In this document: in pieces, positions 33,114-63,108 of the stretch
Position numbering within the stretch: the stretch's first letter is position 1
Layout: each line of letters begins with the position of its first letter
Assembly (NCBI GenBank): GCA_025266875.1
Contig: JALLLT010000014.1
Location: forward strand, 744,001-808,000
Direction of reading: 5' to 3'
Length of the DNA stretch: 64,000 nucleotides
DNA from: Fennellomyces sp. T-0311
Taxonomy: Eukaryota; Mucoromycota; Mucoromycetes; Mucorales; Lichtheimiaceae
The notes under the pieces: generated by a model
Seen by the model: the letters and a program-made list of their open reading frames with translations, nothing else
What the model was told of the DNA's origin: nothing
Database searches by the model: none
Position numbers and translations under genes: made by a program

Positions 33114-34647
33114 TTACGTTATTAAAAGATGCATACACAGGGTGGCAACAAGGGACACCCCTAATATCAACAAAGACTGTTCTGCAGTATCACCTCCGTT
33201 TCTGACAAAACCTTCTTGGGCGCGTGCGGAATGGCTCCCCATATCCTTCCAAGGCATCGTGAGCCTGGTAATATTATACGGACGATTGTATTGATTCGCC
33301 AAATGACTTGCCGTCGCCATGTAAGTCTCGTTTCCATAAAAGACATAGGCCATTTCCAGGACTTCCACCAAATCCATGGTGGCATCGAAACCCCCGGTAT
33401 TCGTAAAATTCCATGTAGGCTCATCCAAAGCATACGGAAGCATAAAATCGAGAGCTTGCTTGATCCCCTTGTTGTCTACGGTCTGGTATCTGTGTAGATC
33501 GACTCCGAGCTGTTTGCCAATTGCAGCTAATCTAAACATGCCCTTGAGGTTAAACACGGAGTAGAACCAGGAGAATGGGCGGGCGGTTTCGAGGTACTGT
33601 TCGCCCGAGGTCAGAATCTGCTGTGCAATGCGAGTGGCAGACGCGTTTTCAACCACCTGCTTTGCCAGATCGGTTCGATTGAGGAATTGGTAAATCGATG
33701 CTCGTTGAATATCGTAATACGTTCCTACCATTATTCTTTTTTTAAAATCATCTTTTGCAAGTTAAAAACCATGGGTGTCTGTATGACTTACCGTGGTTGT
33801 TGTGAGCCTCGCCTTCAAAGATACCGTTGGGACTTTTGGTTAGCCATTCGATATACTGGGCAAACCAGAACCGAATATGCTGGTTCATCTTGGGCTTCCA
33901 AGCATCGCTGTATTGAAGAATTGCGACGGAATCGAGCAGTTCAGGCACGACATGGAAATCGATAATACCCTTAGCGCGACCTGTTTGGTAACCGCGGACC
34001 AGAGAAGCGTATTGAAGATGAGGATTCATGCGGGTTTTGGGATTGATAAACCAATCATGGAGACGAGCGACCGCCCTTTCGGCATACGTTTCATTATCAA
34101 AGTAATGATAGCCCAAAGCCAAAAACTGGACATGCTTGACGAGATTTCGAAACATCATGTAATCGGGGACCTTTTCAATTTCGGGATTGACTTTACCGTC
34201 ATGTCGGATATACGGCATACCATGGGGTTGGGATTTGTTTGGCCAAAAGTAACGCGCCAAGGACATGTAATCATGTTGATCGTTGCCACCTGGTACGGCA
34301 ATGGATTTCTGGACAACCGAAAATAGCGTGTCGTTGGAAGCGTATCGGTCTGCCTTCTTTTTCAAAAACCACAACGCATGCTGTAGTCCGTGGTCGTAAT
34401 CGAACATGTGTTCTTTGTTTTCGCGCAACACGGCAGGATCCGTCATAACAAACGGGAATGCGGATTGCGATATGTTGGTAGGTGGATCTTGCGCTTTGGG
34501 TGCCGGATAATTCCATCCACTCACATCCGGATTCATCAACGAAACGCTGTCATCATCGTCCAACGCAATGTTGCCTGGCTCATTGTCTTCGGCGCATATA
34601 CCAATCACAGCAGCAATGGAAAGTAACAAATATTCCTTCTTGACCAT
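33114..34647 (-). CDS. Secreted, probably GPI-anchored alginate-lyase-domain protein
   Basis: Exons 34647-33792 and 33724-33114 join in phase across a 67-nt intron, 488 aa. ATG 34647 gives a signal peptide (KEYLLLSIAAVIGICAED). The body matches the alginate lyase superfamily (Pfam PF05426 type): SAFPFVMTDPAVL, an all-helical barrel, and the catalytic-region motif EAHNNHGTYYDIQ, which the intron interrupts. Several N-glycosylation sequons (NIS, NET, NRT, NIT) are present. The C-terminus ends in a hydrophobic tail (LLILGVSLVATLCMHLLIT) after a small-residue region, as for a GPI signal. Fungal members probably act on uronic-acid polymers of their own walls; mucoralean walls contain glucuronan-type polymers. 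The substrate is inferred and not shown by sequence. Confidence 0.88.
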
Positions 34648-34752
34648 TTTTAGGCGTTTGTTTGTGCAAGTAAAGTAAAAAATAATAAACAAACTTTTTT
34701 AGCAGCAAAAGTGCTTAAACTATGAAACTTTCTTTATTCGCCGAGCCATGTT

Positions 34753-40565: not shown

Positions 40566-41371
40566 CTAGTAAATCTCATCAAACGGCCGGGTGTCTGCGA
40601 AACAGCTATCAAACACACTAGCCACGGCCCGCTCTGCTTCTTCCTTGGATTTACAATTTGGGTTCTCCATCACCGATAGCACTGCTCGTCGTTTAACACA
40701 TGCTTGATGCTGCTTTGTGAATGTATAGAAACCACGCTGAATCTCGCGTGTCCAGTTGCAATCACCACTCAAACTGGCTGCGCGAACCTAATCACATTCC
40801 GTTTGAGCAAATAAAGATGTATCATCATATGAAATACCTTACCTCGCTGCAAGCATGATGGCGCAAATTGAACCAATCCACCTTGAAACGCTGATGGTCG
40901 TACAAATGAATCATTTCATGAACCATCGTGTGTTCCTGATGCGTCTTTGAATTCATTCTGTTTTGGCACAACAAAATACCGTCCTCAGGCGAAAAGCCTC
41001 CTGACCGTGTAATGTCGCACGGCATACATAAAAAATCTTCTCGCTTGACTTCACGACCGATCTTGCCAAGGTGCTCTACCATGAACCGAACAGACGCACC
41101 TAAACCGCCCGCGGAATAAGAACCCTTTTTTTGATTGCAATGGTTGAATTCAATGTAACATACTATTTTTCATCAAGTTGTCGCGCCACACTTCGCATTG
41201 TCGACATTGGTATGATTCAAGTTCCTTGTCAAGATCTTTACGGAACGCTGTTTGTTCGGTTTCAGACATGCCTAGACCGGTCATGTACTGCAGCGACTTG
41301 CGCCACCGCTCGAATTTCTTCATATCCTTTAGTGAGGTCGCATTGTCCTGTTGACTTGTGCCTTCAGCCAT
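40566..41371 (-). CDS. ATP23: Mitochondrial metalloprotease ATP23
   Basis: Exons 41371-41164, 41099-40843 and 40787-40566, in phase, 228 aa. ATP23 sits on the intermembrane-space face of the inner membrane, processes the Atp6 precursor and assists F0 assembly. The zinc-metalloprotease motif HEMIH is seen in [15 protein letters not shown]. Family phrases are [43 protein letters not shown] and [13 protein letters not shown]. Cysteine pairs (QCRQC, MPCD, NPNC) fit oxidative folding through Mia40. Length fits the fungal orthologues. Confidence 0.95.
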
Positions 41372-42268
41372 TGTGTTGTCAAGGTGAAAAGCCGCCTTTT
41401 AACCCAGCATCAAAAGGTTAACTATGCCGGCCAATAGCCTCTCGAGGAGGCCCTAGTAAGTCCCGAGATGGTAATATGCGAATGGTTTTCCGTTCGAATC
41501 ATCATACCTCGTTGCAGCAGCTACTCCACACCGATCCCTTTTTATCCCTCCCTCTCCACTATCTAGTCACCAAAGTCTTCAAGGATTTACTGAGCCGCCA
41601 TGGTAACATCAGCCGGACTGTAAATCCATGTCACGTCCTATGATATGGTTCCATGTGAAAAAAAAATTGGCAGCGACAATTTCAATGATAAGAAACCATA
41701 TGCTTAAAAGACCCTCCATATTATATGACAAGGGATCTTGCTGTGCATACTTTTTTGATCAGTCACCCCTTTGTACCTAATGTTTCCTTTGGGTCGCGGT
41801 TACCACCGACCCATTCTCAGTCTTCTAAGTATACAGTAAGTGCATCAAGGTGGGCAGTCTGAATATAATACGCATAACTACGTATATAACGGTGGTGCTT
41901 CTAGAATACAGGCGGCCATTCCATTCAATAAGCATATACTTTTGTCACTAAAATTTTACATGAGGATAGATAGTAACAAACCATCTCTTTTTGTTAATTA
42001 AACTTATCTGCATCCCTCTAGATAGCGTCCGGTAGATAGGTGGTGCGGGTCTATAGACCTGGATCTATCTCTCTGTGTAAGTACATACAGCCATACTGCC
42101 AATGTAGTTATATAATAAGATTTTTCGGTCGAATTACCATCACCATCAGTAAAGTACTCCTTTCTTCCGGGCAAGGAACTCAGATCTTTCATTCAATGTA
42201 TCATCTTAATACAGAAAGTCGCGATCAGCGCACATCCATAATTTGTACATCACGTAAATCCGACGGAT
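41372..42268. other. Intergenic, left flank of the palindrome
   Basis: No gene is supported. This stretch marks the change from the dense housekeeping block to the palindrome. Confidence 0.5.
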
Positions 42269-43131
42269 ATCCTGCCATCAGTAAAACTCAGTTCGGTTTC
42301 AGCACGAGTTCGAAAGTTATATATTTTACTTGCATTCGATATAAAAAAGTATTGGGTGCGCCTCAACTTCATCTACAACTCGTTTGCGTATATATAGCCA
42401 CCGGATTTACGTAATTAGATATGCCGTAGGCCTGGGACTTTGCAGAATCTCGGACAGCCACACGTGCGCCAATCCCATCCTTATTTAGATAATACGTAAG
42501 CAAGCTTTTTCGGAAAGACTCCCGATTTTTCTACGTTTTATTTCGGTCGTTTTATCAGCTCCGTCATCTATTTACCTTTATTCCACTACTGTTTCCATAA
42601 TCGTAGATGAAGATAGTGGTAATTTTGAAATCCAGAAGTAGCCTTTTGAAGTAAATGAGCAAAGCCAAAGAAGCCAATGTGAGCTTCATAGCAAAGTGCA
42701 CCGGTTGCTTGTCTGAAAGGAGTAACGATCTGCTTGTTCAGATATGAAAAGTTGACGTGTGTGGCACGTAGCCAGGTGAGTACCGCTGAAAGCAAAAGGT
42801 AGAATCCGGTGCTGGTTTGCGAGGGGCATAGCCTCCTTGAAAGAGAGTAGATAAAGTTTTTCCGCTAAATTGCTAGGACAAAGTTTGTCAACTCTAAAAT
42901 ATTTTTGCCTCCTTCGTCATCTGAAACATATGCCCTACATAATCTCGTCACCAGTATGATGAGATGAATTTCTGATTGCCTAATCCCTCATATAATGCAT
43001 CATGATAAAACCGGCGTTATTCTTTTATTATTATTATTTTCCAAAATAGACCAAGCTATAGTGTATAATAATATGTGTTATAGACAAATAACACTTAAAA
43101 GAGTCGATGTGTGTCTACCATCACCTATAGT

Positions 43132-43584
43132 TTATTCTAAGCGTTGGCATTTGCCGCTTTCATCAGAGCTGTTGATCTTTTTGCATGTAAGGTTTTCGCA
43201 ACAGTCGGAATCTTCGTCACAAACACCGTCTTCATATTCACAGTCTCCGGAATCACCCCCGGATTCCGTACACACGGAATCAAAGTCATCACCAGATTCA
43301 CTGAAGCACTCCATATCACCACAGCATGTAGCACCACCTCGGCAGCTTCCACCCTTTGCTATGCATACTCCGTCGGAAGGCTTCGCTAGTTGACATACAC
43401 CTTCTGCAGCACCAGGGACACCATTGCTATCGTAGCACTCGTAGCCATCACAACATGTCAGCATTTCTTGTCCTCCACAAGGTTGTTCGACTCCTTGACA
43501 TGTATCGTCGGCGTAGATCATGTCGAGGCTTAATGCCAACAATACGGCAGAGAATAATAGACTTTTTCCGGAAAACTGAACCAT
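43132..43584 (-). CDS. Secreted triple-knot cysteine-rich protein, copy 1L
   Basis: ATG at 43584, stop TAA at 43132-43134, 150 aa, no intron. Residues 1-25 are a signal peptide (SLLFSAVLLALSLDMIYA). The mature part has 18 cysteines in three units of six: Cys29-36-44-45-50-64, Cys74-81-87-88-93-105 and Cys115-122-128-129-134-146. Spacing is C-x6-C-x5 or 7-CC-x4-C-x11 or 13-C, the pattern of inhibitor-cystine-knot (knottin) folds. The rest is acidic and Gly/Ser-rich. It should be exported and disulfide-stable; role unknown. Effectors, antimicrobial peptides, enzyme inhibitors and wall proteins all use such folds. It is nearly identical to 58829-59281, with one residue difference seen (Glu40 here, Gln there). 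Confidence 0.85.
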   Translation of the reverse strand: MVQFSGKSLLFSAVLLALSLDMIYADDTCQGVEQPCGGQEMLTCCDGYECYDSNGVPGAAEGVCQLAKPSDGVCIAKGGSCRGGATCCGDMECFSESGDDFDSVCTESGGDSGDCEYEDGVCDEDSDCCENLTCKKINSSDESGKCQRLE

Positions 43585-43738
43585 TTTCAATACTAATTTT
43601 ACACGTTAGATAAAAAAAGCCGGGATCACAGCGAATATTCCTTACGAGCAAAAAAAGAGGAAAGAGTATGGAGAAGAAAATGTGCGCCTCGTTGATCCAC
43701 TATTTAAAGGATTATGGCTTACGCGTAATATGTATACG

Positions 43739-43755
43739 GCGTAATGTGACGCCAC
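43739..43755 (-). promoter_or_regulatory. Shared 17-bp upstream element, copy 1L
   Basis: On the minus strand this reads GTGGCGTCACATTACGC, 154 bp before the ATG. The same element precedes the other three family members. Its GCGTCAC core contains the reverse of GTGACGC, resembling CRE/bZIP sites. Confidence 0.6.
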
Positions 43756-44083
43756 ATTTGACGGGAGACTTTGTGAGAATCCGCTAAAATTAGGAGACGC
43801 ATTTCTACGTAAGGAGGTAAAAGCGGAGGGGAATTGAAATACATCATCCAACCAGTAATTTGATCTCAATATGTTGTTCATCATGCATATCATGGAAGCC
43901 GAGTGTCAGATGTGACAAACAAAAGCACGATTGGGATTCACGTACGACATTTTGGTTGGCGTATAAAGTCCCTCTAGGAAACAAGTATCCGAATTGGCGA
44001 TGAAGGAAGCACTTGTTAATACCAAGTTCTTTAGGTGACGCATTACACCCATAAGTCTACAATTTTTGTGTTCCTGAGACGAT

Positions 44084-44690
44084 GTGCTTTCGTTTGATAC
44101 AGTATACTTTACCAACCACTATCGATTCACTCCCATTAGAACTATCCTAACCTACCAATACAAAAATGATTGGATCACGTTTATTCGTGTATGCAAGTTT
44201 TTGATCGAGCAGTGCGAACGGAATACTTTGTCAACCGCACCTTCTGGCGGAAGCTGCTACAGATCGTCCTCGGTATTGAAGAGGTGGCAGCAAAAAAAGA
44301 CTAATAGCTTGGAAGAAGAATCCCATCCTAACAGTCAAGCAAATCGTCAGGAAACTCGCGACTGGTACATCAGGATGGACACCATTCAAAACAAAACCAA
44401 AAAAAAAAACTCGAGAAGCAACTATTAGAAGATTTGAAACGTTTGAGAGTGGGTCATACAAAGACGTTTGAAACCCACAGTATCGCTCTATTAGTTCGAA
44501 AAGTCCCTACCGTACCATTAGGAGTTGCAGCTAATCAAAGGATTTTGGGAGATCGTGGAGCAGAAAGCTACATCTAGTCGCATCCCCAACCGCACTGTTG
44601 TAGAAATCGCCCGCTGGTTATACAACTACTTCTCTAAAGCCAAACGCAATGATCTTATTTCGCTTTGGAAGACAGGATAAAGAAGATTCA
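44084..44690 (+). pseudogene. Decayed coding-like fragments in left arm (mirror 57723-58329)
   Basis: Successive plus-strand frames look like remains of one gene, with phrases such as WITFIRVCKFLIEQCER, then IKGFWEIVEQKATSSRIPN and VEIARWLYNYFSKAKRNDL. Stops and frame changes separate them and no good start was found. Both palindrome arms carry the same breaks. This may be a mobile-element-derived gene; no domain was recognised. Confidence 0.3.
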
Positions 44691-45187
44691 CTTGAGGAAA
44701 GGTTCTCGAATAATGCTTAAATTACAAGTTTGAAACAACACATTGACAATGGTGTAAAGATAAACATCTACAGCTAAAAAGTGCGTGGAAAGCAGATGTG
44801 AACTCACCAAGTTATCGGTTTGGAGTTTGTATACATGTTTTCCCGCGGAACGTTATGTTTTACACGCTCATTTCGACGTTGTGATTTTAAAATGGGCAGC
44901 CTAATAGTGAGCACCACTACTATAGCAATAAGAGAGCCTTATCAGAGAAACCAATGCATGTTTCGTTTGATGCTATCCATAGACGCCATGTTACTCGTGG
45001 TTTTGGCGCATTTATTTGCCAGGGCCCTACATGCAAAGGCCATAAATATAAAGACCTGCTTGTGCGCCAACGTCGAACGATAGAAGAATGCTCGGTATAG
45101 AAGGATACTGATATAGCTGACAAACCCGCAGATATGCTGCTGAGAGTGGGATTACACTATAGAAACATAAAGACACATTAGAGCGTC

Positions 45188-45671
45188 TTATACCTGTCTC
45201 TGCGTTCTTGTTGCCACTGTACAGTTCATGTCTTTTGAACATGCGCAATGAGATGCTGCCTGTGGAATGGGAATCGTGCTGTTCAATGTACTTTGATTCA
45301 TGAACAAATCATCTGCCACAATGCCTCGCCATTTGCAATAAAAACAGTAAACGCGCGTTCTCTTATACTTTGAAACTACTTTTCCACAGATGACCAAAGA
45401 CAATCACGTGCTTAATATGACAGAGACTTTGCGGTGAACTAGTGATTGCGTGGTAAGCAGAGTCAATGCTGGCAACGGCAGCAGTATGCCAATGGGCAAC
45501 GTGTTCTCCCCGAATGAATATCGTGAACTCGCAGGAACCAGGAACTGTATTCATAGTCGCCGCAATGTCAAAGGCAGAATTTATTGGGGGTGCATGGCGA
45601 ATGCAGAAAAAACGCAAGTATGGGAAGAAAACGAATAGAGGATTTATTTTTATGAATATACATCGTGTCAA
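45188..45671 (-). pseudogene. Coding-like fragments in left arm (mirror 56742-57225)
   Basis: Two overlapping minus-strand frames, one with FTIFIRGEHVAHWHTAAVA and SLCHIKHVIVFGHLWK, the next with KRTRVYCFYCKWRGIVADD and SHCACSKDMNC. They look like neighbouring parts of one former gene. No family is recognised; both arms agree. Confidence 0.25.
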
Positions 45672-46499
45672 GTGGATGCCGGATTATCATGACGGGCATG
45701 CTTCTTGGGCTCGGGAGAGCTGATGACTCTACATATAAGGCAACAACAATTAGACGCAAGATCGACCTTTATCCTGGTTTTTTGTATACATGACCTTGAA
45801 TGATTTTGATTGGAAGACACTATGCGACCAAGTGCTCGTAGCTACTAATATATGTATGATTTGTCAACTGCTCTTGCCAAGCAAGAACGGGATGACGTAT
45901 CAACGTTATTCTGGACTGCTTGACACACTCAAAACCATTCACAAGAAGGCTCTGAGTCGTCTGGTCCCTAAAAAAACTTGTACACCTGTACTCGTCTGCG
46001 CTGGCAGGAGGCTTTTCTCTTTTTTCTTTTTTTTTCCTGCGGGGGGTGCCAGTTCTTTCTTTTTTTTTTTCGGGGATTCGCAGCGAAGCAAATAAGAGTA
46101 CAGGCGCGACCGGTGTGCATCTTGCTGGCTTCCCGATTGCAGATCCCTCCCAACCACTGGATTGCTGGGCCGAGGACTGGAAAATATTTTATTTCTAGCT
46201 AATGACCTACCTTGTTCAACTGGAAGCCAGAACCGACAAGTAAAAAAAGCAGCGCTTTTATTTAATATTGGAAAGACAAAGTGCATAGAGGCGCGCAGTG
46301 ATCTCCCCTTTTTATATTGCCCGGTCACACCCCGCGACCCGCTGATCACGGTTGTATGTTCTGCCGACCAATGAATGATCCTTGGCCTTGTTACAGCACA
46401 GCTTTCGCGTCGCTATGCTGTCCAGCCACTCACCTAGTAACTGTGCTAAGAAAATAAAGTAAGCTACCTCTTCTGCTTCCGGTCATTCCAAGAAAAAAA

Positions 46500-46720
46500 A
46501 TCGACTATGAGCCTCCTACGCCTGACGACAAGAAATCCCGTGTCTACGGGTCAAGCACGGAAATCGATCGCCAAGCAGTGGATTCCTTCGTCTCGGTAAA
46601 CAATGACGGAACAGCGTTGTGTGACAAAATATACACTTGGCCTGGGCAAAACCAATCGAGCCAAACATGCCGCGATACGGGAACACGTGCGTCTCGACGA
46701 TAAAGGCAAAACATAAGCTG
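46500..46720 (+). other. Open frame without a start (left arm; mirror 55693-55913)
   Basis: A frame reading YEPPTPDDKKSRVYGSSTEI and onward is open to about 46710 with protein-like composition but lacks an in-frame ATG. It could be an internal exon or a relic. The following 0.7 kb (46720-47440) shows nothing I can support. Confidence 0.25.
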
Positions 46721-47488
46721 TTATATAAAGAAAAAAGTTGGCAATCCCGGTTGACTGGATCTGCAGCTCATCAACACAAACAATAGCCTTCCGATGTTTG
46801 TTGACGGCACTATTCCCTCCTAACTTTCAGGTTTAGCCTCCTTAAAACAAGCGACTGTCGTTACTTCTCACGAAAATGTCAAAGTAAAAAAGAAGCTTAC
46901 GTTGCTCCAGCGCTAAGGAAACCACGATTTAAATTAAATAGACTGTTCGTTCGCATACACTTGCATCGCTGCCTAAGGTAATCATCTTTTACCATCCTGT
47001 TCTTTTGCTCACAAATATCTGCATAATGAGATGTCGTCTTGTTCCCGCATCATTCAAAACATAAACATGTGCCCAGTCAGCAATACCCACGCTAAAACGA
47101 CACCAAATAGCACCATTCCGATGTTTACTGATATACATCTACCTCTTGTTTTCCGATTTGGCAAATGATCAACGCCGCGTTCACAACCATGTCAACGTAA
47201 AGAACAAAGATTGCCTCTTTGTAGCGAAGAGCAGTGCGTATGGATTAAAAAGTACAATTTATTTTCTCATTAAGTATATCCGTCCTAAGCCGGATTAACG
47301 TTCACGAACGAAGAACGTCAGTCAAACAAGTGAAACAAAAATATCACTTCAACCATAAACAAGCCTAACAATGAAAATCTGTGCTCATGGTTGCTGTGGG
47401 AACAAACATAGTCCGGTTTTGTACCCGAACCCGTGATATCCCCATGCTCAAGCCATCAGCAGCGAAAACAACCGGCGTGGCCGTGTTG

Positions 47489-47869
47489 TCATCTTGTACA
47501 GAAGAGAACTAAATAGGAGTGTGCGCGATATTTCTTGAATCCACTTACCAGGGCAGTGTTGCGCAGGAGCGAAAAACTCGATAGTTTGCATGAAACTGGT
47601 AGTTGAACTTGAAGCATCACCTTTGCCTGTAGAAACAAGCCAGTGCGACAAGGCCTACATGAGAACCTCGTACATCTGACTAGCATTTTTCGCAAGATGC
47701 TGACTGTCACGTTTCGTTGATGAAATGCCTGGTTGATTGGGCGTTCAATCTGTTCATGCTCTTGCTCCAATACAATGGCGTTATAGCCATGAAGGCTTGA
47801 CAGTTCACTCTCATAGATATCTACGGAGATCAACACGACTAGCCAAAATAAAACCATTTGCACTTTCAT
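47489..47869 (-). CDS. Signal-peptide-bearing ORF, left arm only intact
   Basis: ATG at 47869 opens 126 residues with a hydrophobic N-terminus like a signal peptide (VQMVLFWLVVLISVDIYES). Then comes EQEHEQIERPINQAFHQRN and a short Cys cluster (CTRFSCRPC). The right-arm counterpart (from 54546) is interrupted after about 37 codons by two small changes, so this gene or relic is the clearest functional difference between the arms. The intact frame could be chance; no family is known. A diverged copy of its first exon-like part lies about 230 bp upstream (near 48010-48110). Confidence 0.3.
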   Translation of the reverse strand: MKVQMVLFWLVVLISVDIYESELSSLHGYNAIVLEQEHEQIERPINQAFHQRNVTVSILRKMLVRCTRFSCRPCRTGLFLQAKVMLQVQLPVSCKLSSFSLLRNTALVSGFKKYRAHSYLVLFCTR

Positions 47870-48130
47870 GCACAAGCAATAAGCGACAAAAGCAACTGGC
47901 GCGGCGATACCGCTGATCGTATTCCAAAGGATGATCTGCTAGTTTGTGGGTGCACTCACTATAACCCAGCATTGCTTTGTCAAGGCGAACGTTGAAGAGA
48001 TCGAACTGGAGTATAATCGTAAAGGCTGGACAGGTCACTCTCATAGGCACTTACAGAGATCAACACGCCAAGCGACCACAACCCATTGCCACCATCATGC
48101 TCAAGCCATAAGCACCAAGAACACTTGGCG
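47780..48130. repeat. Degenerate direct repeat, period about 232 bp
   Basis: Blocks near 47791-47900 and 48023-48130 align (shared phrases CACTCTCATAG and GAGATCAACACG) and encode related minus-strand phrases (VLISVDIYESELSSLHGY and VLISVSAYESDLSSLYDY). The mirror copy is in the right arm at about 54285-54635. This is an old tandem duplication older than the palindrome. Confidence 0.6.
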
Positions 48131-49426
48131 TGGTTTCGCTCTTTTGGAGGGTGTCCAATGGTTTTCTCGTGTAGAAATGCTGTGAGTTGCAATGATTCTC
48201 ATATGTCCTTATTTTCTCTATTATCTTTTCCTCTGCACCCTTCTCGACCCCTGCTCTGCAACATTTGCTGTCATTGTACCTGGCGATCCGAGTGCGGCTT
48301 GGTCGGGCGACGCCATTCGCGGACACCAATTGGTAATGCTCCTGTTCGGTTGTTGAATGTTGATTGAGTCTACATTGCGAGAGGGTTGACAGCCAAAACT
48401 CACGTAAAAGCACTGAGGAAATATTTAAAGAACGCTTGCCCTTTGGACTATAGTTGACTCGCAAGTTGAGGATCCTTTTGCTTCTTGTCTCAATAATCAG
48501 TGAACTTTGCAAACGAAGAGCAATCAGTTTACTGTTTTGGCTTCAAAGACACTCCTCGCTGCTTACATACCAAAAAAATCTACGTCCATCGCTTGTGAAG
48601 TTGGCATGGCGGGAAAAAAGCACGAGACGATAAGCGTCAATTCTTGCATGACAGCTGTTTTAATCACGAAACAACGACACTCCCTAGCGTCATGGTCCCA
48701 TAGTAAAAAAAAGGTGTAGTGTTTCGATGGTGCAGTATACGAATGAAACCATAGCAATTTGTTATATACAGTGATCTCCTTTTCCCTTGTCCCTTAATTT
48801 CTTGCGTTCCTGTGTAACGAATGATTTCGCCTGAAATAAGAACCTCCACTCTCATAGTCTGCTCAGAGCGGGATGATGATTGGACGGGAGTTGTTCAAGA
48901 AACGTTATTCTCGTCCTTTTTGCACTTTGTATGCATACTTTTCTATCATAGTCCGCTGCAAACATTAACTGCATCGAATGAAAAAAGTTTTTACACGGCA
49001 AAGCATGTGGCTGGGGTAAGTTTTCCTTTGTACAAGGAGCCATGGCGCGGCGTCATCGGGTAGCGAGCCTTTTTAATGAAAGTTTGCGCACCTATAAAAT
49101 ATATCAACATCGGAAGCAGCAGCAAACTACGTCAAGTTCAGTCTTTTTATCATAATAAAATCTCACCCGTATACGCGGCTTCTTCATATTGCACTTTACT
49201 TATGATGAAGTCAGCGCTATCCAGTGTCGTATGGGTAGGTATAGACCAGATCAGTAAAAAGTCAATCAGCAGAGCCAATTGATGGATTGAGCCATTGACC
49301 AAGCATCAAGCCAAGACCTCAATGTGCGCACTGACTGTATTATATAAGGCACCCTTAAATTGTTTCGTGTCAAATAGTATATATTATAACGGAAACGGCG
49401 TTCCAGGACACAAGCCCAATCAAGCA

Positions 49427-51099
49427 TCACTTGGTGCACAGTGCCTCGGTTTTTTCACTCAAAAGCATGCCAGAACTAGATCTCCATCCACCGCAAGCAA
49501 TGTCACTGGCAATGCGCGTACTAACGTCAGCGACAATAAGGGCAATGCATAATGGACATACAAGTTTGAATAGCTTACCCACAGCCTGGTACACGATCAT
49601 GCCCTCCATACAATTGGCATCTACACCACCTTTGCCGAACATAGCAAGCTCTAGCAAGTCCTTCGCCAAGGCAAAACTGTCGTCAGCGTGCTCTTCCGAC
49701 TTAACTTCGCCATATAGTACGGAACGCGTGCACTTGACACCAAAAAGCTGCGATACGATTGTGGTATCGCTCAATTGGAAAGCTTCAATGACGAGACCAA
49801 AAATAAAATGATGTTTTATTGTGGAAAACTACTCTCTATTTATAATGATGATGAGTCGGAACGGAGAAGGTGGATGCTTTTCTATCAGAGCCGAATCCGT
49901 GTTATCGCCGTAATCGCTAATGACCATACTGTCTTATTACGAAGGAGCGGATAATCATGCAGAGACTGAGTTAACGTGAATGGTCCTTCTTGGAGTCTGA
50001 ACCCAGATCAAGGTCTCACTGACGCACAAGCCAGTGAACAGGCCAATAGATAACTGTGCGGTTGTTGATGTTGAAATAAAGGAACGGATGCAACAAAGGC
50101 TGAGATGGAAAGGTATGTCGACAATGGATGACTGGTATGTCAGGATACGACAACGATACAGTCTGGGCGATGAGAGGTTGGGCAGTTGATAATTTCAAGA
50201 GTATCAAGCTTCGTATTGGGCCTTAACAATAGGTCAGTACGACTATTCCTCTTCCTGTTTGGAATTCCTTACCAGCGAAGGCGCGAATTCGATGACTGCA
50301 GGAGGGGTGTGAGAAAAGGAGCGAGGAAAGACGTTATGAGATCCATTTCTGGAACCTCGTTCATGATGCCGGCAGGAGGAAACGTTTCGATACTGTGTTG
50401 AACTTAGCTTCAGTGACATATTTTAGTTCTCCAATACGTACATGTTCCGTAGACCACGCACAATCTGTGCTTCCTTTGTCAGTCCCTTCTGTCGAGCCAT
50501 TCTCGCGATATCATTCCCCCCATCAGAAATATCATTCAATGTTTCGGCTGACGTATTGATTTCCTTTAATATTGGAAGTACGAATATCATCCATCATTAT
50601 AGCAATGTACCTCCAACTTGTTTTGCAAAATTTCTTTCACATCTTTGTCGAATTCTACGTCTTGGCCACAGAAATACTCCTTGACTTGGGCTGCCGTCGC
50701 GTTCAGATCATGAATCGTAAAAAGCTTGATCATATCCGGAGAGTACACCCATTGTTTCAATAGTAATATGTGTGTCAAAGCACTGACTGATTGTTAGTCA
50801 AACGCATTTTCAAAAGCCACGTGACACCTACAGCAGCTCCAACAAGTTCGTCTCCTGAAACATCTTCTGCTCTGATAGCATTTCCTTGTCACGCTTTTTG
50901 TACCCAAAAAAAGCTGGCGCGATGTCTTTTCCCCCATGTAATATGGCACTTCTGGAGCCCTGCCTACGGAAACATCATCGATATCCTGCAATGGCGCCAG
51001 GAGGTCCGGTAATAATGACCCTTCATCCTGTTGGAGTTCGCCCGTCGGATTGAAGAAGTCATGTACAGGATCCCTGGTAAAGCAACATGAGTTTCGCAT
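49427..51099 (-). pseudogene. Broken multi-exon lineage gene, left-arm copy
   Basis: Mirror of 51315-52987; see that entry for structure. The same frame breaks and the same usable splice sites are present here, so the damage predates or was homogenised after the inversion. Confidence 0.45.
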
Positions 51100-51166
51100 G
51101 CCTTTTAAACTAGTTAACTATCTTACCCCAGCCTTGTTTCTCGTACGAGAACGCCCTTCGGGTCCT

Positions 51167-51247
51167 TACACAATACAAATAACGGGTAGCAAGTCTTTGG
51201 TTCTGTGCAAAATATGATTGGTACCGCAGCTACTAATGAAGAAGTTG
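51167..51247. repeat. 81-nt spacer of the palindrome
   Basis: The unpaired centre between AGGACCC-type arm ends. Left arm ends GGGTCCT at 51166 and right arm begins AGGACCC at 51248. The flanking 40 nt on each side pair with a single mismatch. No coding potential. Confidence 0.9.
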
Positions 51248-51314
51248 AGGACCCGAAGGGCGTTCTCATACGAGAAACAAGGCTGGGGTAAGATAGTTAA
51301 CTAGTTTAAAAGGC

Positions 51315-52987
51315 ATGCGAAACTCATGTTGCTTTACCAGGGATCCTGTACATGACTTCTTCAATCCGACGGGCGAACTCCAACAGGATGAAGGGTCATT
51401 ATTACCGGACCTCCTGGCGCCATTGCAGGATATCGATGATGTTTCCGTAGGCAGGGCTCCAGAAGTGCCATATTACATGGGGGAAAAGACATCGCGCCAG
51501 CTTTTTTTGGGTACAAAAAGCGTGACAAGGAAATGCTATCAGAGCAGAAGATGTTTCAGGAGACGAACTTGTTGGAGCTGCTGTAGGTGTCACGTGGCTT
51601 TTGAAAATGCGTTTGACTAACAATCAGTCAGTGCTTTGACACACATATTACTATTGAAACAATGGGTGTACTCTCCGGATATGATCAAGCTTTTTACGAT
51701 TCATGATCTGAACGCGACGGCAGCCCAAGTCAAGGAGTATTTCTGTGGCCAAGACGTAGAATTCGACAAAGATGTGAAAGAAATTTTGCAAAACAAGTTG
51801 GAGGTACATTGCTATAATGATGGATGATATTCGTACTTCCAATATTAAAGGAAATCAATACGTCAGCCGAAACATTGAATGATATTTCTGATGGGGGGAA
51901 TGATATCGCGAGAATGGCTCGACAGAAGGGACTGACAAAGGAAGCACAGATTGTGCGTGGTCTACGGAACATGTACGTATTGGAGAACTAAAATATGTCA
52001 CTGAAGCTAAGTTCAACACAGTATCGAAACGTTTCCTCCTGCCGGCATCATGAACGAGGTTCCAGAAATGGATCTCATAACGTCTTTCCTCGCTCCTTTT
52101 CTCACACCCCTCCTGCAGTCATCGAATTCGCGCCTTCGCTGGTAAGGAATTCCAAACAGGAAGAGGAATAGTCGTACTGACCTATTGTTAAGGCCCAATA
52201 CGAAGCTTGATACTCTTGAAATTATCAACTGCCCAACCTCTCATCGCCCAGACTGTATCGTTGTCGTATCCTGACATACCAGTCATCCATTGTCGACATA
52301 CCTTTCCATCTCAGCCTTTGTTGCATCCGTTCCTTTATTTCAACATCAACAACCGCACAGTTATCTATTGGCCTGTTCACTGGCTTGTGCGTCAGTGAGA
52401 CCTTGATCTGGGTTCAGACTCCAAGAAGGACCATTCACGTTAACTCAGTCTCTGCATGATTATCCGCTCCTTCGTAATAAGACAGTATGGTCATTAGCGA
52501 TTACGGCGATAACACGGATTCGGCTCTGATAGAAAAGCATCCACCTTCTCCGTTCCGACTCATCATCATTATAAATAGAGAGTAGTTTTCCACAATAAAA
52601 CATCATTTTATTTTTGGTCTCGTCATTGAAGCTTTCCAATTGAGCGATACCACAATCGTATCGCAGCTTTTTGGTGTCAAGTGCACGCGTTCCGTACTAT
52701 ATGGCGAAGTTAAGTCGGAAGAGCACGCTGACGACAGTTTTGCCTTGGCGAAGGACTTGCTAGAGCTTGCTATGTTCGGCAAAGGTGGTGTAGATGCCAA
52801 TTGTATGGAGGGCATGATCGTGTACCAGGCTGTGGGTAAGCTATTCAAACTTGTATGTCCATTATGCATTGCCCTTATTGTCGCTGACGTTAGTACGCGC
52901 ATTGCCAGTGACATTGCTTGCGGTGGATGGAGATCTAGTTCTGGCATGCTTTTGAGTGAAAAAACCGAGGCACTGTGCACCAAGTGA
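51315..52987 (+). pseudogene. Broken multi-exon lineage gene, right-arm copy
   Basis: A recognisable gene plan remains. ATG 51315 is followed by NPTGELQQDEGSLLPDLL. Frames then shift to PAFFGYKKRDKEMLSEQK and GAAVGVTWLLKM, then LLLKQWVYSPDMIKLF. Three phase-consistent introns follow (donors at 51804, 51973 and 52142; acceptors ending at 51850, 52021 and 52192), giving EINTSAETLNDISDGG, PPAGIMNEVPEMDLITSFL and TLEIINCPTSHRPDC. The last frame has CTRSVLYGEVKSEEHADD and LLELAMFGKGGVDANC. This resembles an expanded uncharacterised Mucoromycota family ending in GEVK and LL.LA.FGK phrases, from memory only. Three uncorrected frame breaks in the 5' half (near 51480, 51560 and 51630) argue for a pseudogene. 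Confidence 0.5.
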
Positions 52988-54545
52988 TGCTTGATTGGGC
53001 TTGTGTCCTGGAACGCCGTTTCCGTTATAATATATACTATTTGACACGAAACAATTTAAGGGTGCCTTATATAATACAGTCAGTGCGCACATTGAGGTCT
53101 TGGCTTGATGCTTGGTCAATGGCTCAATCCATCAATTGGCTCTGCTGATTGACTTTTTACTGATCTGGTCTATACCTACCCATACGACACTGGATAGCGC
53201 TGACTTCATCATAAGTAAAGTGCAATATGAAGAAGCCGCGTATACGGGTGAGATTTTATTATGATAAAAAGACTGAACTTGACGTAGTTTGCTGCTGCTT
53301 CCGATGTTGATATATTTTATAGGTGCGCAAACTTTCATTAAAAAGGCTCGCTACCCGATGACGCCGCGCCATGGCTCCTTGTACAAAGGAAAACTTACCC
53401 CAGCCACATGCTTTGCCGTGTAAAAACTTTTTTCATTCGATGCAGTTAATGTTTGCAGCGGACTATGATAGAAAAGTATGCATACAAAGTGCAAAAAGGA
53501 CGAGAATAACGTTTCTTGAACAACTCCCGTCCAATCATCATCCCGCTCTGAGCAGACTATGAGAGTGGAGGTTCTTATTTCAGGCGAAATCATTCGTTAC
53601 ACAGGAACGCAAGAAATTAAGGGACAAGGGAAAAGGAGATCACTGTATATAACAAATTGCTATGGTTTCATTCGTATACTGCACCATCGAAACACTACAC
53701 CTTTTTTTTACTATGGGACCATGACGCTAGGGAGTGTCGTTGTTTCGTGATTAAAACAGCTGTCATGCAAGAATTGACGCTTATCGTCTCGTGCTTTTTT
53801 CCCGCCATGCCAACTTCACAAGCGATGGACGTAGATTTTTTTGGTATGTAAGCAGCGAGGAGTGTCTTTGAAGCCAAAACAGTAAACTGATTGCTCTTCG
53901 TTTGCAAAGTTCACTGATTATTGAGACAAGAAGCAAAAGGATCCTCAACTTGCGAGTCAACTATAGTCCAAAGGGCAAGCGTTCTTTAAATATTTCCTCA
54001 GTGCTTTTACGTGAGTTTTGGCTGTCAACCCTCTCGCAATGTAGACTCAATCAACATTCAACAACCGAACAGGAGCATTACCAATTGGTGTCCGCGAATG
54101 GCGTCGCCCGACCAAGCCGCACTCGGATCGCCAGGTACAATGACAGCAAATGTTGCAGAGCAGGGGTCGAGAAGGGTGCAGAGGAAAAGATAATAGAGAA
54201 AATAAGGACATATGAGAATCATTGCAACTCACAGCATTTCTACACGAGAAAACCATTGGACACCCTCCAAAAGAGCGAAACCACGCCAAGTGTTCTTGGT
54301 GCTTATGGCTTGAGCATGATGGTGGCAATGGGTTGTGGTCGCTTGGCGTGTTGATCTCTGTAAGTGCCTATGAGAGTGACCTGTCCAGCCTTTACGATTA
54401 TACTCCAGTTCGATCTCTTCAACGTTCGCCTTGACAAAGCAATGCTGGGTTATAGTGAGTGCACCCACAAACTAGCAGATCATCCTTTGGAATACGATCA
54501 GCGGTATCGCCGCGCCAGTTGCTTTTTGTCGCTTATTGCTTGTGC

Positions 54546-54659
54546 ATGAAAGTGCAAATGGTTTTATTTTGGCTAGTCGTGTTGATCTCCGTAGATATCT
54601 ATGAGAGTGAACTGTCAAGCCTTCATGGCTATAACGCCATTGTATGGGCAAGAGCATGA
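54546..54659 (+). pseudogene. Interrupted right-arm copy of the signal-peptide ORF
   Basis: Counterpart of 47489-47869. It starts with the same hydrophobic leader, but a two-base shortening near 54645 shifts the frame and ends it at 54657-54659. An extra T near 54527 lies just upstream. The downstream part of the frame is otherwise preserved to 54924. Confidence 0.5.
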
Positions 54660-57600
54660 ACAGATTGAACGCCCAATCAACCAGGCATTTCATCAACGAA
54701 ACGTGACAGTCAGCATCTTGCGAAAAATGCTAGTCAGATGTACGAGGTTCTCATGTAGGCCTTGTCGCACTGGCTTGTTTCTACAGGCAAAGGTGATGCT
54801 TCAAGTTCAACTACCAGTTTCATGCAAACTATCGAGTTTTTCGCTCCTGCGCAACACTGCCCTGGTAAGTGGATTCAAGAAATATCGCGCACACTCCTAT
54901 TTAGTTCTCTTCTGTACAAGATGACAACACGGCCACGCCGGTTGTTTTCGCTGCTGATGGCTTGAGCATGGGGATATCACGGGTTCGGGTACAAAACCGG
55001 ACTATGTTTGTTCCCACAGCAACCATGAGCACAGATTTTCATTGTTAGGCTTGTTTATGGTTGAAGTGATATTTTTGTTTCACTTGTTTGACTGACGTTC
55101 TTCGTTCGTGAACGTTAATCCGGCTTAGGACGGATATACTTAATGAGAAAATAAATTGTACTTTTTAATCCATACGCACTGCTCTTCGCTACAAAGAGGC
55201 AATCTTTGTTCTTTACGTTGACATGGTTGTGAACGCGGCGTTGATCATTTGCCAAATCGGAAAACAAGAGGTAGATGTATATCAGTAAACATCGGAATGG
55301 TGCTATTTGGTGTCGTTTTAGCGTGGGTATTGCTGACTGGGCACATGTTTATGTTTTGAATGATGCGGGAACAAGACGACATCTCATTATGCAGATATTT
55401 GTGAGCAAAAGAACAGGATGGTAAAAGATGATTACCTTAGGCAGCGATGCAAGTGTATGCGAACGAACAGTCTATTTAATTTAAATCGTGGTTTCCTTAG
55501 CGCTGGAGCAACGTAAGCTTCTTTTTTACTTTGACATTTTCGTGAGAAGTAACGACAGTCGCTTGTTTTAAGGAGGCTAAACCTGAAAGTTAGGAGGGAA
55601 TAGTGCCGTCAACAAACATCGGAAGGCTATTGTTTGTGTTGATGAGCTGCAGATCCAGTCAACCGGGATTGCCAACTTTTTTCTTTATATAACAGCTTAT
55701 GTTTTGCCTTTATCGTCGAGACGCACGTGTTCCCGTATCGCGGCATGTTTGGCTCGATTGGTTTTGCCCAGGCCAAGTGTATATTTTGTCACACAACGCT
55801 GTTCCGTCATTGTTTACCGAGACGAAGGAATCCACTGCTTGGCGATCGATTTCCGTGCTTGACCCGTAGACACGGGATTTCTTGTCGTCAGGCGTAGGAG
55901 GCTCATAGTCGATTTTTTTTCTTGGAATGACCGGAAGCAGAAGAGGTAGCTTACTTTATTTTCTTAGCACAGTTACTAGGTGAGTGGCTGGACAGCATAG
56001 CGACGCGAAAGCTGTGCTGTAACAAGGCCAAGGATCATTCATTGGTCGGCAGAACATACAACCGTGATCAGCGGGTCGCGGGGTGTGACCGGGCAATATA
56101 AAAAGGGGAGATCACTGCGCGCCTCTATGCACTTTGTCTTTCCAATATTAAATAAAAGCGCTGCTTTTTTTACTTGTCGGTTCTGGCTTCCAGTTGAACA
56201 AGGTAGGTCATTAGCTAGAAATAAAATATTTTCCAGTCCTCGGCCCAGCAATCCAGTGGTTGGGAGGGATCTGCAATCGGGAAGCCAGCAAGATGCACAC
56301 CGGTCGCGCCTGTACTCTTATTTGCTTCGCTGCGAATCCCCGAAAAAAAAAAAGAAAGAACTGGCACCCCCCGCAGGAAAAAAAAAGAAAAAAGAGAAAA
56401 GCCTCCTGCCAGCGCAGACGAGTACAGGTGTACAAGTTTTTTTAGGGACCAGACGACTCAGAGCCTTCTTGTGAATGGTTTTGAGTGTGTCAAGCAGTCC
56501 AGAATAACGTTGATACGTCATCCCGTTCTTGCTTGGCAAGAGCAGTTGACAAATCATACATATATTAGTAGCTACGAGCACTTGGTCGCATAGTGTCTTC
56601 CAATCAAAATCATTCAAGGTCATGTATACAAAAAACCAGGATAAAGGTCGATCTTGCGTCTAATTGTTGTTGCCTTATATGTAGAGTCATCAGCTCTCCC
56701 GAGCCCAAGAAGCATGCCCGTCATGATAATCCGGCATCCACTTGACACGATGTATATTCATAAAAATAAATCCTCTATTCGTTTTCTTCCCATACTTGCG
56801 TTTTTTCTGCATTCGCCATGCACCCCCAATAAATTCTGCCTTTGACATTGCGGCGACTATGAATACAGTTCCTGGTTCCTGCGAGTTCACGATATTCATT
56901 CGGGGAGAACACGTTGCCCATTGGCATACTGCTGCCGTTGCCAGCATTGACTCTGCTTACCACGCAATCACTAGTTCACCGCAAAGTCTCTGTCATATTA
57001 AGCACGTGATTGTCTTTGGTCATCTGTGGAAAAGTAGTTTCAAAGTATAAGAGAACGCGCGTTTACTGTTTTTATTGCAAATGGCGAGGCATTGTGGCAG
57101 ATGATTTGTTCATGAATCAAAGTACATTGAACAGCACGATTCCCATTCCACAGGCAGCATCTCATTGCGCATGTTCAAAAGACATGAACTGTACAGTGGC
57201 AACAAGAACGCAGAGACAGGTATAAGACGCTCTAATGTGTCTTTATGTTTCTATAGTGTAATCCCACTCTCAGCAGCATATCTGCGGGTTTGTCAGCTAT
57301 ATCAGTATCCTTCTATACCGAGCATTCTTCTATCGTTCGACGTTGGCGCACAAGCAGGTCTTTATATTTATGGCCTTTGCATGTAGGGCCCTGGCAAATA
57401 AATGCGCCAAAACCACGAGTAACATGGCGTCTATGGATAGCATCAAACGAAACATGCATTGGTTTCTCTGATAAGGCTCTCTTATTGCTATAGTAGTGGT
57501 GCTCACTATTAGGCTGCCCATTTTAAAATCACAACGTCGAAATGAGCGTGTAAAACATAACGTTCCGCGGGAAAACATGTATACAAACTCCAAACCGATA

Positions 57601-58657
57601 ACTTGGTGAGTTCACATCTGCTTTCCACGCACTTTTTAGCTGTAGATGTTTATCTTTACACCATTGTCAATGTGTTGTTTCAAACTTGTAATTTAAGCAT
57701 TATTCGAGAACCTTTCCTCAAGTGAATCTTCTTTATCCTGTCTTCCAAAGCGAAATAAGATCATTGCGTTTGGCTTTAGAGAAGTAGTTGTATAACCAGC
57801 GGGCGATTTCTACAACAGTGCGGTTGGGGATGCGACTAGATGTAGCTTTCTGCTCCACGATCTCCCAAAATCCTTTGATTAGCTGCAACTCCTAATGGTA
57901 CGGTAGGGACTTTTCGAACTAATAGAGCGATACTGTGGGTTTCAAACGTCTTTGTATGACCCACTCTCAAACGTTTCAAATCTTCTAATAGTTGCTTCTC
58001 GAGTTTTTTTTTTTGGTTTTGTTTTGAATGGTGTCCATCCTGATGTACCAGTCGCGAGTTTCCTGACGATTTGCTTGACTGTTAGGATGGGATTCTTCTT
58101 CCAAGCTATTAGTCTTTTTTTGCTGCCACCTCTTCAATACCGAGGACGATCTGTAGCAGCTTCCGCCAGAAGGTGCGGTTGACAAAGTATTCCGTTCGCA
58201 CTGCTCGATCAAAAACTTGCATACACGAATAAACGTGATCCAATCATTTTTGTATTGGTAGGTTAGGATAGTTCTAATGGGAGTGAATCGATAGTGGTTG
58301 GTAAAGTATACTGTATCAAACGAAAGCACATCGTCTCAGGAACACAAAAATTGTAGACTTATGGGTGTAATGCGTCACCTAAAGAACTTGGTATTAACAA
58401 GTGCTTCCTTCATCGCCAATTCGGATACTTGTTTCCTAGAGGGACTTTATACGCCAACCAAAATGTCGTACGTGAATCCCAATCGTGCTTTTGTTTGTCA
58501 CATCTGACACTCGGCTTCCATGATATGCATGATGAACAACATATTGAGATCAAATTACTGGTTGGATGATGTATTTCAATTCCCCTCCGCTTTTACCTCC
58601 TTACGTAGAAATGCGTCTCCTAATTTTAGCGGATTCTCACAAAGTCTCCCGTCAAAT

Positions 58658-58674
58658 GTGGCGTCACATTACGC
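58658..58674 (+). promoter_or_regulatory. Shared 17-bp upstream element, copy 1R
   Basis: GTGGCGTCACATTACGC, 154 bp before ATG 58829. Confidence 0.6.
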
Positions 58675-58704
58675 CGTATACATATTACGCGTAAGCCATA
58701 ATCC

Positions 58705-58715
58705 TTTAAATAGTG
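58705..58715 (+). promoter_or_regulatory. TATA-like box of copy 1R
   Basis: TTTAAATAGTG lies 113 bp before the ATG. The identical 11-mer precedes the paralogue at 60754. Confidence 0.6.
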
Positions 58716-58828
58716 GATCAACGAGGCGCATATTTTCTTCTCCATACTCTTTCCTCTTTTTTTGCTCGTAAGGAATATTCGCTGTGATCCCGGCTTTTTT
58801 TATCTAACGTGTAAAATTAGTATTGAAA

Positions 58829-59281
58829 ATGGTTCAGTTTTCCGGAAAAAGTCTATTATTCTCTGCCGTATTGTTGGCATTAAGCCTCGACATGATCTAC
58901 GCCGACGATACATGTCAAGGAGTCGAACAACCTTGTGGAGGACAACAAATGCTGACATGTTGTGATGGCTACGAGTGCTACGATAGCAATGGTGTCCCTG
59001 GTGCTGCAGAAGGTGTATGTCAACTAGCGAAGCCTTCCGACGGAGTATGCATAGCAAAGGGTGGAAGCTGCCGAGGTGGTGCTACATGCTGTGGTGATAT
59101 GGAGTGCTTCAGTGAATCTGGTGATGACTTTGATTCCGTGTGTACGGAATCCGGGGGTGATTCCGGAGACTGTGAATATGAAGACGGTGTTTGTGACGAA
59201 GATTCCGACTGTTGCGAAAACCTTACATGCAAAAAGATCAACAGCTCTGATGAAAGCGGCAAATGCCAACGCTTAGAATAA
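58829..59281 (+). CDS. Secreted triple-knot cysteine-rich protein, copy 1R
   Basis: ATG 58829 (an upstream TTG is not needed), stop TAA 59279-59281, 150 aa. Same architecture as copy 1L: 25-residue signal peptide and three six-cysteine knottin-like units. Residue 40 is Gln instead of Glu. This copy heads a same-strand array with 60754 and 62794, spaced about 2 kb, so it probably represents the original position. The surrounding promoter block (element at 58658, TATA-like box at 58705, upstream phrase GAGATCAAATTACTG) recurs before 60754. Expression and secretion are inferred from sequence only. Confidence 0.85.
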   Translation: MVQFSGKSLLFSAVLLALSLDMIYADDTCQGVEQPCGGQQMLTCCDGYECYDSNGVPGAAEGVCQLAKPSDGVCIAKGGSCRGGATCCGDMECFSESGDDFDSVCTESGGDSGDCEYEDGVCDEDSDCCENLTCKKINSSDESGKCQRLE

Positions 59282-60584
59282 ACTATAGGTGATGGTAGAC
59301 ACACATCGACTCTTTTAAGTGTTATTTGTCTATAACACGTATTATTATACACTATAGCTTGGTCTATTTTGGAAAATAATAATAATAAAAGAATAACGCC
59401 GGTTTTATCATGATGCATTATATGAGGGATTAGGCAATCAGAAATTCATCTCATCATACTGGTGACGAGATTATGTAGGGCATATGTTCCAGATGACGAA
59501 GGAGGCAAAAATATTTTAGAGTTAACAAACTTTGTCCTAGCAATTTAGCAGAAAAACTTTATCTACTCTCTTTCAAGGAGGCTATGCCCCTCGCAAACCA
59601 GCACCGGATTCTACCTTTTGCTTTCAGCGGTACTCACCTGGCTACGTGCCACACACGTCAACTTTTCATATCTGAACAAGCAGATCGTTACTCCTTTCAG
59701 ACAAGCAACCGGTGCACTTTGCTATGAAGCTCACATTGGCTTTTTTGGCTTTGCTCATTTACTTCAAAAGGCTACTGCTGGATTTCAAAATTACCACTAT
59801 CTTCATCTACGATTATGGAAACAGTAGTGGAATAAAGGTAAATAGATGACGGAGCTGATAAAATGACCGAAATAAAACGTAGAAAAATCGGGAGTCTTTC
59901 CGAGAAAGCTTGTTTACGTATTATCTAAATAAGGATGGGATTGGCGCACGTGTGGCTGTCCGAGATTCTGCAAAGTCCCAGGCCTACGGCATATCTAATT
60001 ACGTAAATCCGATGGCTAGATATACGCAAACGAGTTGTAGATGAAGTTGAGGCGCACCCAATACTTTTTTATATCGAATGCAAGTAAAATATATAACTTT
60101 CGAACTCGTGCTGAAACCGAACTGAGTTTTACTGATGGCAGGATTTCTAAATATCGTATCTATATGTTTACGCACTCAGATGCAAGTGATCAGCGTACCT
60201 ACGTACTTATAAAAATACCTGTACTATACACCACATAGGCAGAAAATGACGTTACAGTGACCGGAAGCTATATTTAAGTTAGAGTGCGATCTAAAATACG
60301 CCTGAGATCGCTACATCCCCTACGATGAAAGGATGGATATAGAATTCCAATATTTCTGTAGCTATTACATAAATATCCATTAAGAAGACATTAAGTGCCA
60401 GTCATAGTTTTAAATTGGTATTTTCTCGCCACGTCTGAGCTTGGGTTTCCACAATATGCATAATGAATGACCTACTGAGATCAAATTACTGCTAGAATGC
60501 ACTGCAACTTTCACCTATACTTCTAACTCCCTAAAGGCGTGCCTCCCGGATTACTGCCGATCATCACAACCTCTCCTGTTCAGT

Positions 60585-60753: not shown

Positions 60754-61203
60754 ATGGTTCAGTTTTCCGTAAAGAGCTTACTGATTTCTGCTGCATTGTT
60801 GGCTTTGAGTCTTGACGGCATCTACGCTGATGATACGTGTCAGGCTGATGAATCACGGTGTTCGATAACCGAAAATTTATTATGCTGTGATGGCTCTGAG
60901 TGCTATAACAGCAATGGTGAACCTGGCGCTGTAGAGGGTGTATGTCGGCCAGCAACTAACAATGATGCCACTTGTGCACAAGAAAGCAGTCCTTGTCAAG
61001 GTGCTGGCACATGCTGTGGTGAACTCGAATGCGTCAGTGCTTCTGGTGACGGTTCTGATGCTGTATGTCAGTTTCCCAACTCTGGCTCCTGTGAACCTCA
61101 AGATCGAAATTGTCAGCACGATTCTCATTGCTGTCCGGGCCTCATGTGTAAAAAGTACAACGATATTGGAGATGGCAATTGCCAGCCTGTGCATGCGGAA
61201 TAA
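60754..61203 (+). CDS. Secreted triple-knot cysteine-rich protein, copy 2
   Basis: ATG 60754, stop TAA 61201-61203, 149 aa. Signal peptide SLLISAALLALSLDGIYA, then three six-cysteine units with spacing C-x6-C-x7-CC-x4-C-x13-C, C-x6-C-x5-CC-x4-C-x11-C and C-x6-C-x5-CC-x4-C-x10-C. All 18 cysteines of copy 1 are kept, while most surface residues between them differ. This is the expected picture for a disulfide scaffold whose loops evolve fast. The 5' flank is alignable with that of copy 1 for about 300 bp, so gene and promoter were duplicated together. Confidence 0.88.
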   Translation: MVQFSVKSLLISAALLALSLDGIYADDTCQADESRCSITENLLCCDGSECYNSNGEPGAVEGVCRPATNNDATCAQESSPCQGAGTCCGELECVSASGDGSDAVCQFPNSGSCEPQDRNCQHDSHCCPGLMCKKYNDIGDGNCQPVHAE

Positions 61204-62793: not shown

Positions 62794-63108
62794 ATGGTCC
62801 ATTTTTCTACGAAAACTTTACTATTCTCTGCTGCATTGTTGGCTTTGAACCTTGACGGCATCTATGCTGCCGATACATGTCAAGCTGTCGATACACCTTG
62901 TGGCGGCTCGAGATTGAAGTGCTGCGATGGCTTGGAGTGTTTGGGATACTCTTATATGGACATGCCAGACGGTGTGTGTCGGCCAGTCAAATCCGAAGAG
63001 GAGCCAGCGCCTCCACCCCCAGAAGATGAGACACCACCATCCGAACCACCAGCAGATAATGAAGGCCAAAAGAAATGCCTCCTTGGCATTAAACTTTTAT
63101 GTTTCTGA
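62794..63108 (+). CDS. Secreted single-knot paralogue with Pro/Glu tail, copy 3
   Basis: ATG 62794, stop TGA 63106-63108, 104 aa. The signal peptide (TLLFSAALLALNLDGIYA) and first six-cysteine unit (C-x6-C-x6-CC-x4-C-x12-C) clearly match the family. The second and third units are missing. In their place is an acidic proline-rich linker (EEEPAPPPPEDETPPSEPP) and a short end with two cysteines (CLLGIKLLC). Either a shorter functional form or a truncated gene. Beyond the stop, another frame continues to 63190 with two more cysteines, so a frameshift is possible. A TATA-like TATATAAAC lies near 62667. Confidence 0.75.
   Translation: MVHFSTKTLLFSAALLALNLDGIYAADTCQAVDTPCGGSRLKCCDGLECLGYSYMDMPDGVCRPVKSEEEPAPPPPEDETPPSEPPADNEGQKKCLLGIKLLCF

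Follow-up and report, generated by a model that had tools for sequence, protein, structure and literature searches.

In most cells, long palindromes whose spacer is short are considered unstable. In fungi, a large palindrome flanked by two outward-facing Copia LTRs is described for accessory chromosome 14 of Zymoseptoria tritici, at about 500–550 kb of that chromosome (PMC3681731). Fold-back inversions do occur in yeast and in humans (PMC7467729, PMC3907307). For Saccharomyces cerevisiae, the loops among those listed in the cited sections measure 3 to 44 nt, and products as well as secondary rearrangements were observed directly (PMC7467729). For inverted duplications in humans, in which the arms flank a disomic spacer, the cited account gives sequenced spacers of 766–70,466 bp and places these structures beside terminal deletions or translocations, or in rings (PMC3907307). 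A review describes how inverted repeats that lie close together form cruciforms by extrusion and undergo rearrangement (PMC6895784). Arm-to-arm gene conversion is described for sex-chromosome palindromes, namely those of the willow W and the mammalian ones cited therein (PMC7023750). In the open-access literature we found no published description of the palindrome of Fennellomyces sp. T-0311 that is the subject of this analysis. Large fungal palindromes and arm conversion are already known separately, and the present case is a further example.

The window is a stretch of 64,000 nucleotides (C46:744001–808000) from a genome of 45.6 Mb in 182 contigs; the fungus belongs to the Mucorales, family Lichtheimiaceae. 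Self-BLAST of the window returned one long minus-strand match, 42269–60147 against 60144–42266, with 99.58% identity over 17,893 columns. This match resolves into a left arm of 8,898 nt (42269–51166, minus strand), a spacer of 81 nt (51167–51247) and a right arm of 8,897 nt (51248–60144, plus strand), which are the long reverse-complement arms and short spacer of an interstitial inverted duplication. The arms differ by 15 substitutions, 12 of which are transitions, one 2-nt indel and one 1-nt indel. A preliminary description made from the letters of this DNA had named the same palindrome and 81-nt spacer, substitutions and two small length differences between the arms, and sharp outer ends; all of this holds, the palindrome and its spacer to the exact nucleotide. 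Within 42001–60400, 17,170 of the 20-mer positions recur in the reverse complement of the same stretch; in 20 single-letter shuffles the count was 0 every time. The palindrome is also the sole inverted pair longer than 1 kb across 104 kb of joined contig (C46:724001–828000), where the second-longest pair (662 columns, 67.5%) matches the arm gene described below to its relative. The 175 nt across the centre are predicted to fold as single-stranded DNA with −61.6 kcal/mol (z = −13.7), as any inverted repeat would. Near the centre, at 51138–51151, the left arm contains a perfect 14-nt palindrome (TTCTCGTACGAGAA) that is broken in the right arm by one substitution (51146 vs 51268).

Compared with the systems above, this locus shares with the Z. 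tritici case that it is a large nuclear palindrome of a fungus, lying in an inserted region associated with repeats; unlike the palindrome described there, it has no outward-facing LTR pair that we could find at its outer ends (PMC3681731). It resembles the S. cerevisiae products in being an inverted duplication, which there arises via a single-stranded hairpin, and differs from them in its spacer of 81 nt and in that the event is deduced after the fact (PMC7467729). As in the human inverted duplications, a single-copy spacer separates the inverted arms, whereas the Fennellomyces palindrome is interstitial on one contig (PMC3907307). Near-identical arms and LTR target duplications common to both arms are features that it has in common with the willow W palindromes, as far as these are covered in the cited sections (PMC7023750), but it has no HMG-box gene on its contig. 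We rejected a sex-locus palindrome: a genome-wide search with all 33 of 33 candidates scored gave 24 HMG-box matches, none of them on this contig. Sex genes of the Mucorales are of the HMG-box kind.

Each arm is an old mosaic made up of diverged repeats, a solo LTR and an orphan cysteine-rich gene of secreted type. A dispersed repeat at 45369–46434 shares 83–89% identity with eight fetched copies elsewhere, and long pieces of an older repeat at 47792–49547 are 74–79% identical to sequence fetched from five places on other contigs; the right arm mirrors both repeats. Together with its target duplication, the solo LTR occupies 49755–50157, with the LTR itself at 49760–50152 (393 nt) and the 5-bp sequence ACGAT, read by eye, on each side. 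Its mirror in the right arm (52262–52654) is identical over 393 nt, and no arm difference falls within 49755–50157. Two features lead us to call this 393-nt element an LTR: several copies stand in pairs some 5.36 kb apart, such as those at C107:71891 and 77252, and the element begins with TG and ends with CA. The solo LTR of the arms differs by 3.6–3.8% from eight compared copies that are themselves 98.3–100% alike; these eight come from ten distinct fetched places, with L014 and L018 excluded from the count, and represent the closest copies, taken from the best 40 of 359 candidates scored. More diverged copies are also present, such as one of 92% at C46:728,755 and one of 94% in L025. The LTR family (LTRs of about 394 nt, several copies 98–100% alike and paired) has perhaps been active recently. 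Closer to the centre, 50587–51117 contains open frames on the minus strand with no Pfam match and no other genome match among the candidates scored, and these frames are perhaps a decayed gene.

Both arms carry the repeats and, at matching positions, the solo LTR with the ACGAT target duplication; a single complete, aged arm therefore existed before copying. Repeat-rich arms could also suggest that one mobile element inserted twice, independently and in opposite orientation. This scenario is highly improbable. The outermost 1.4 kb turned up nowhere in the genome beyond the two arms (3 of 3 candidates scored), no third whole arm appeared among the best 40 candidates scored, and inspection by eye revealed no target duplication where the arms end. 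Because the outer arm end lacks a third copy and the arm combines unrelated repeats with a gene, we rejected two element insertions. The palindrome is thus one pre-existing locus duplicated in inverted orientation.

In the arm we recognised a single clearly intact gene, which lies at 43132–43584 (minus strand) in the left copy and at 58829–59281 (plus strand) in the right copy, with one codon differing between them (CAA vs GAA). It encodes an orphan protein of 150 aa with three CX5-6CX5-6CCX4CX11-15C modules, 18 cysteines and, judged by eye, a signal-like start; the modules of this family are knottin-like. The genome-wide family matches are four genes only (4 of 4 candidates scored), namely both arm copies and two tandem relatives in the right flank: one at 60754–61203, whose protein is 57% identical and likewise has three six-cysteine modules, and one at 62794–63108, which has a single six-cysteine module. 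No family homologue outside this contig was found among 5.77 billion proteins in a search that relies on shared short words (24 candidates gave 2 hits and 562 gave 3). Weak profile matches of the arm protein point to small toxin-type peptides (E 0.055–0.83). The match to Pfam Toxin_12 scores 18 bits, short of the cut-off of 21, and that to Dickkopf_N is likewise below its cut-off; the precomputed annotation of the protein database assigns Toxin_12 (PF07740) to this protein. Its structure prediction is of low confidence (mean pLDDT 63.8). The region 42000–51250 overlaps 71 open frames of at least 60 aa, and none of the seven scanned frames passed a Pfam cut-off. Neither tRNA genes (ARAGORN) nor Rfam families (gathering scores) were found in the window.

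The right-arm copy of the gene stands in a same-strand (plus) row with the relatives at 60754 and 62794 in the right flank. Because the right-arm gene continues this row, the right arm is probably the original copy, and the left arm, inverted relative to the row, is probably the new one. Neither outer flank resembles the other or has another full match in the genome. The 3.8 kb to the left of the palindrome match elsewhere just two short pieces on contig C140 (73% and 67%), and matches of the 3.9 kb to the right are confined to the arm genes. The left flank carries, on the minus strand, a Peptidase_M76 gene (in pieces at 40569–40787 and 40828–41169, start near 41375 as read by eye), and another gene lies near 33114–34698. 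The left flank (42249–42270) also has a 22-nt inverted match to the arm (42394–42415), which we considered as a junction signature and rejected; we treat it as chance because its match to the right arm has an E of 0.24 and the orientation fails to explain the junction.

These flanks bear on the question of whether the second arm exists at all. Fold-back artefacts, in which a chimeric or adapter-missed read adds a mirror copy to an assembly, are a known type of error, and by this account only one arm would be present in reality. One would then expect the left flank to recur beyond the right arm. The flanks show no relation to each other, and this dissimilarity disfavours a simple fold-back artefact. 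The excess of transitions among the substitutions and the absence of indels from the outer 1.4 kb also speak against this explanation, which we consider unlikely. On the evidence of the letters, we infer, rather than prove, that the palindrome is a chromosomal structure.

The substitutions are distributed very unevenly along the arms, a feature absent from the preliminary description, as is the repeat-rich character of the duplicated locus. Thirteen of the 15 fall within the outermost 1,414 nt (0.92%; binomial P = 3e-9, where the test assumes independent sites and the cut was picked after data inspection), at 42394–43682 in the left arm and 58731–60019 in the mirror. The inner left-arm stretch (43683–51145) contains one substitution (47766) and both indels, and a second inner substitution follows at 51146, 20 nt from the spacer. 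At the outer rate, the interior 43683–51145 would be expected to carry 68.6 substitutions, whereas we observed one, or 2 when 51146 is counted. Inward of the outer stretch, two difference-free runs of 4,083 and 3,258 nt are separated by a small cluster at 47766–47887. An interior that diverges far less than the unconverted edges is the pattern of gene conversion between the arms, and consensus flattening could mimic it.

The main doubt is this technical one. Reads from the interior are hard to assign to an arm, so consensus building may flatten the differences there. By this explanation, the palindrome is real, read correction or polishing mixed both arms, and flank-anchored reads alone preserved the outer differences. 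Difference density indeed declines away from the unique flanks, as read anchoring predicts, and one of the two indels (47887) is a run of four versus five A, a kind of length difference that is a typical consensus error. However, flank-anchored reads, if long, should extend several kilobases inward, beyond 1.4 kb. We take flattening to be a serious rival, possible but not the explanation we would choose. Differences this uneven do not fit recent origin alone; they point to an interior homogenised by gene conversion or by the assembler. The preliminary description had offered recent origin, active homogenisation or an assembly fold-back, and had favoured real sequence. Of these, homogenisation of the interior is favoured, recent origin by itself does not fit, and the simple fold-back loses ground. 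Its preference for real sequence gains support from the dissimilar flanks, from the 12 transitions among 15 substitutions and from the right arm joining a row of genes of its own family.

The outer differences could alternatively stem from the copying event itself. If the palindrome were real but too young for divergence, the outer cluster would be a burst of copying errors that break-induced synthesis of low fidelity left near the left junction, and the cluster does sit at an outer junction. The alignment with the tandem relative at 60754 covers four of the outer differences, of which one falls in a gap and three can be polarised: the right arm changed at 43467 and 43074, and the left arm at 43682. 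With these three sites and one relative at about 67–68% DNA identity, chance parallel change is possible at each. Both arms thus seem to have mutated after copying, judging by this comparison, which speaks against an error burst confined to the new arm, since two of the three polarisable differences arose in the right, presumably original, arm. Such a burst would moreover need its errors confined to 1.4 kb, and we regard it as improbable.

The reading that we prefer, and to which we give about even chances, is a real and fairly young inverted duplication by fold-back or template switch, followed by arm-to-arm gene conversion in the interior. At the left edge of the right arm, the original, a stalled fork or broken end would have folded back or switched strand through the 81-nt loop, and the arm would have been copied in reverse up to 60144. 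The junction of the copied arm with the left flank at 42269 would then have formed without visible homology. Subsequently, the outer 1.4 kb of both copies would have reached a divergence of about 0.9%, whereas the interior would have been kept or made alike by arm-to-arm conversion that fades near the outer border of homology. The fold-back step itself is not visible: the innermost 20 nt of the arms are perfect and are followed by one mismatch, an ancestral repeat is inseparable from the arm, and we found no short inverted repeat or microhomology that could be told apart from the arms.

For Fennellomyces, the palindrome amounts to a doubling of the cysteine-rich arm gene. We tentatively propose, at somewhat less than even confidence, that it is a natural palindrome, currently converting, that persists in the chromosome of an early-diverging fungus, with 8.9-kb arms, an 81-nt spacer, a homogenised interior and a conversion edge about 1.4 kb in from the outer border, built around an orphan secreted-type gene of three six-cysteine modules. 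If the identity of the interior is a polishing effect, the locus would be a warning on duplicated arms in published assemblies. If the structure is verified, it would provide a natural marker set for conversion tracts and for palindrome survival outside yeast and sex chromosomes.
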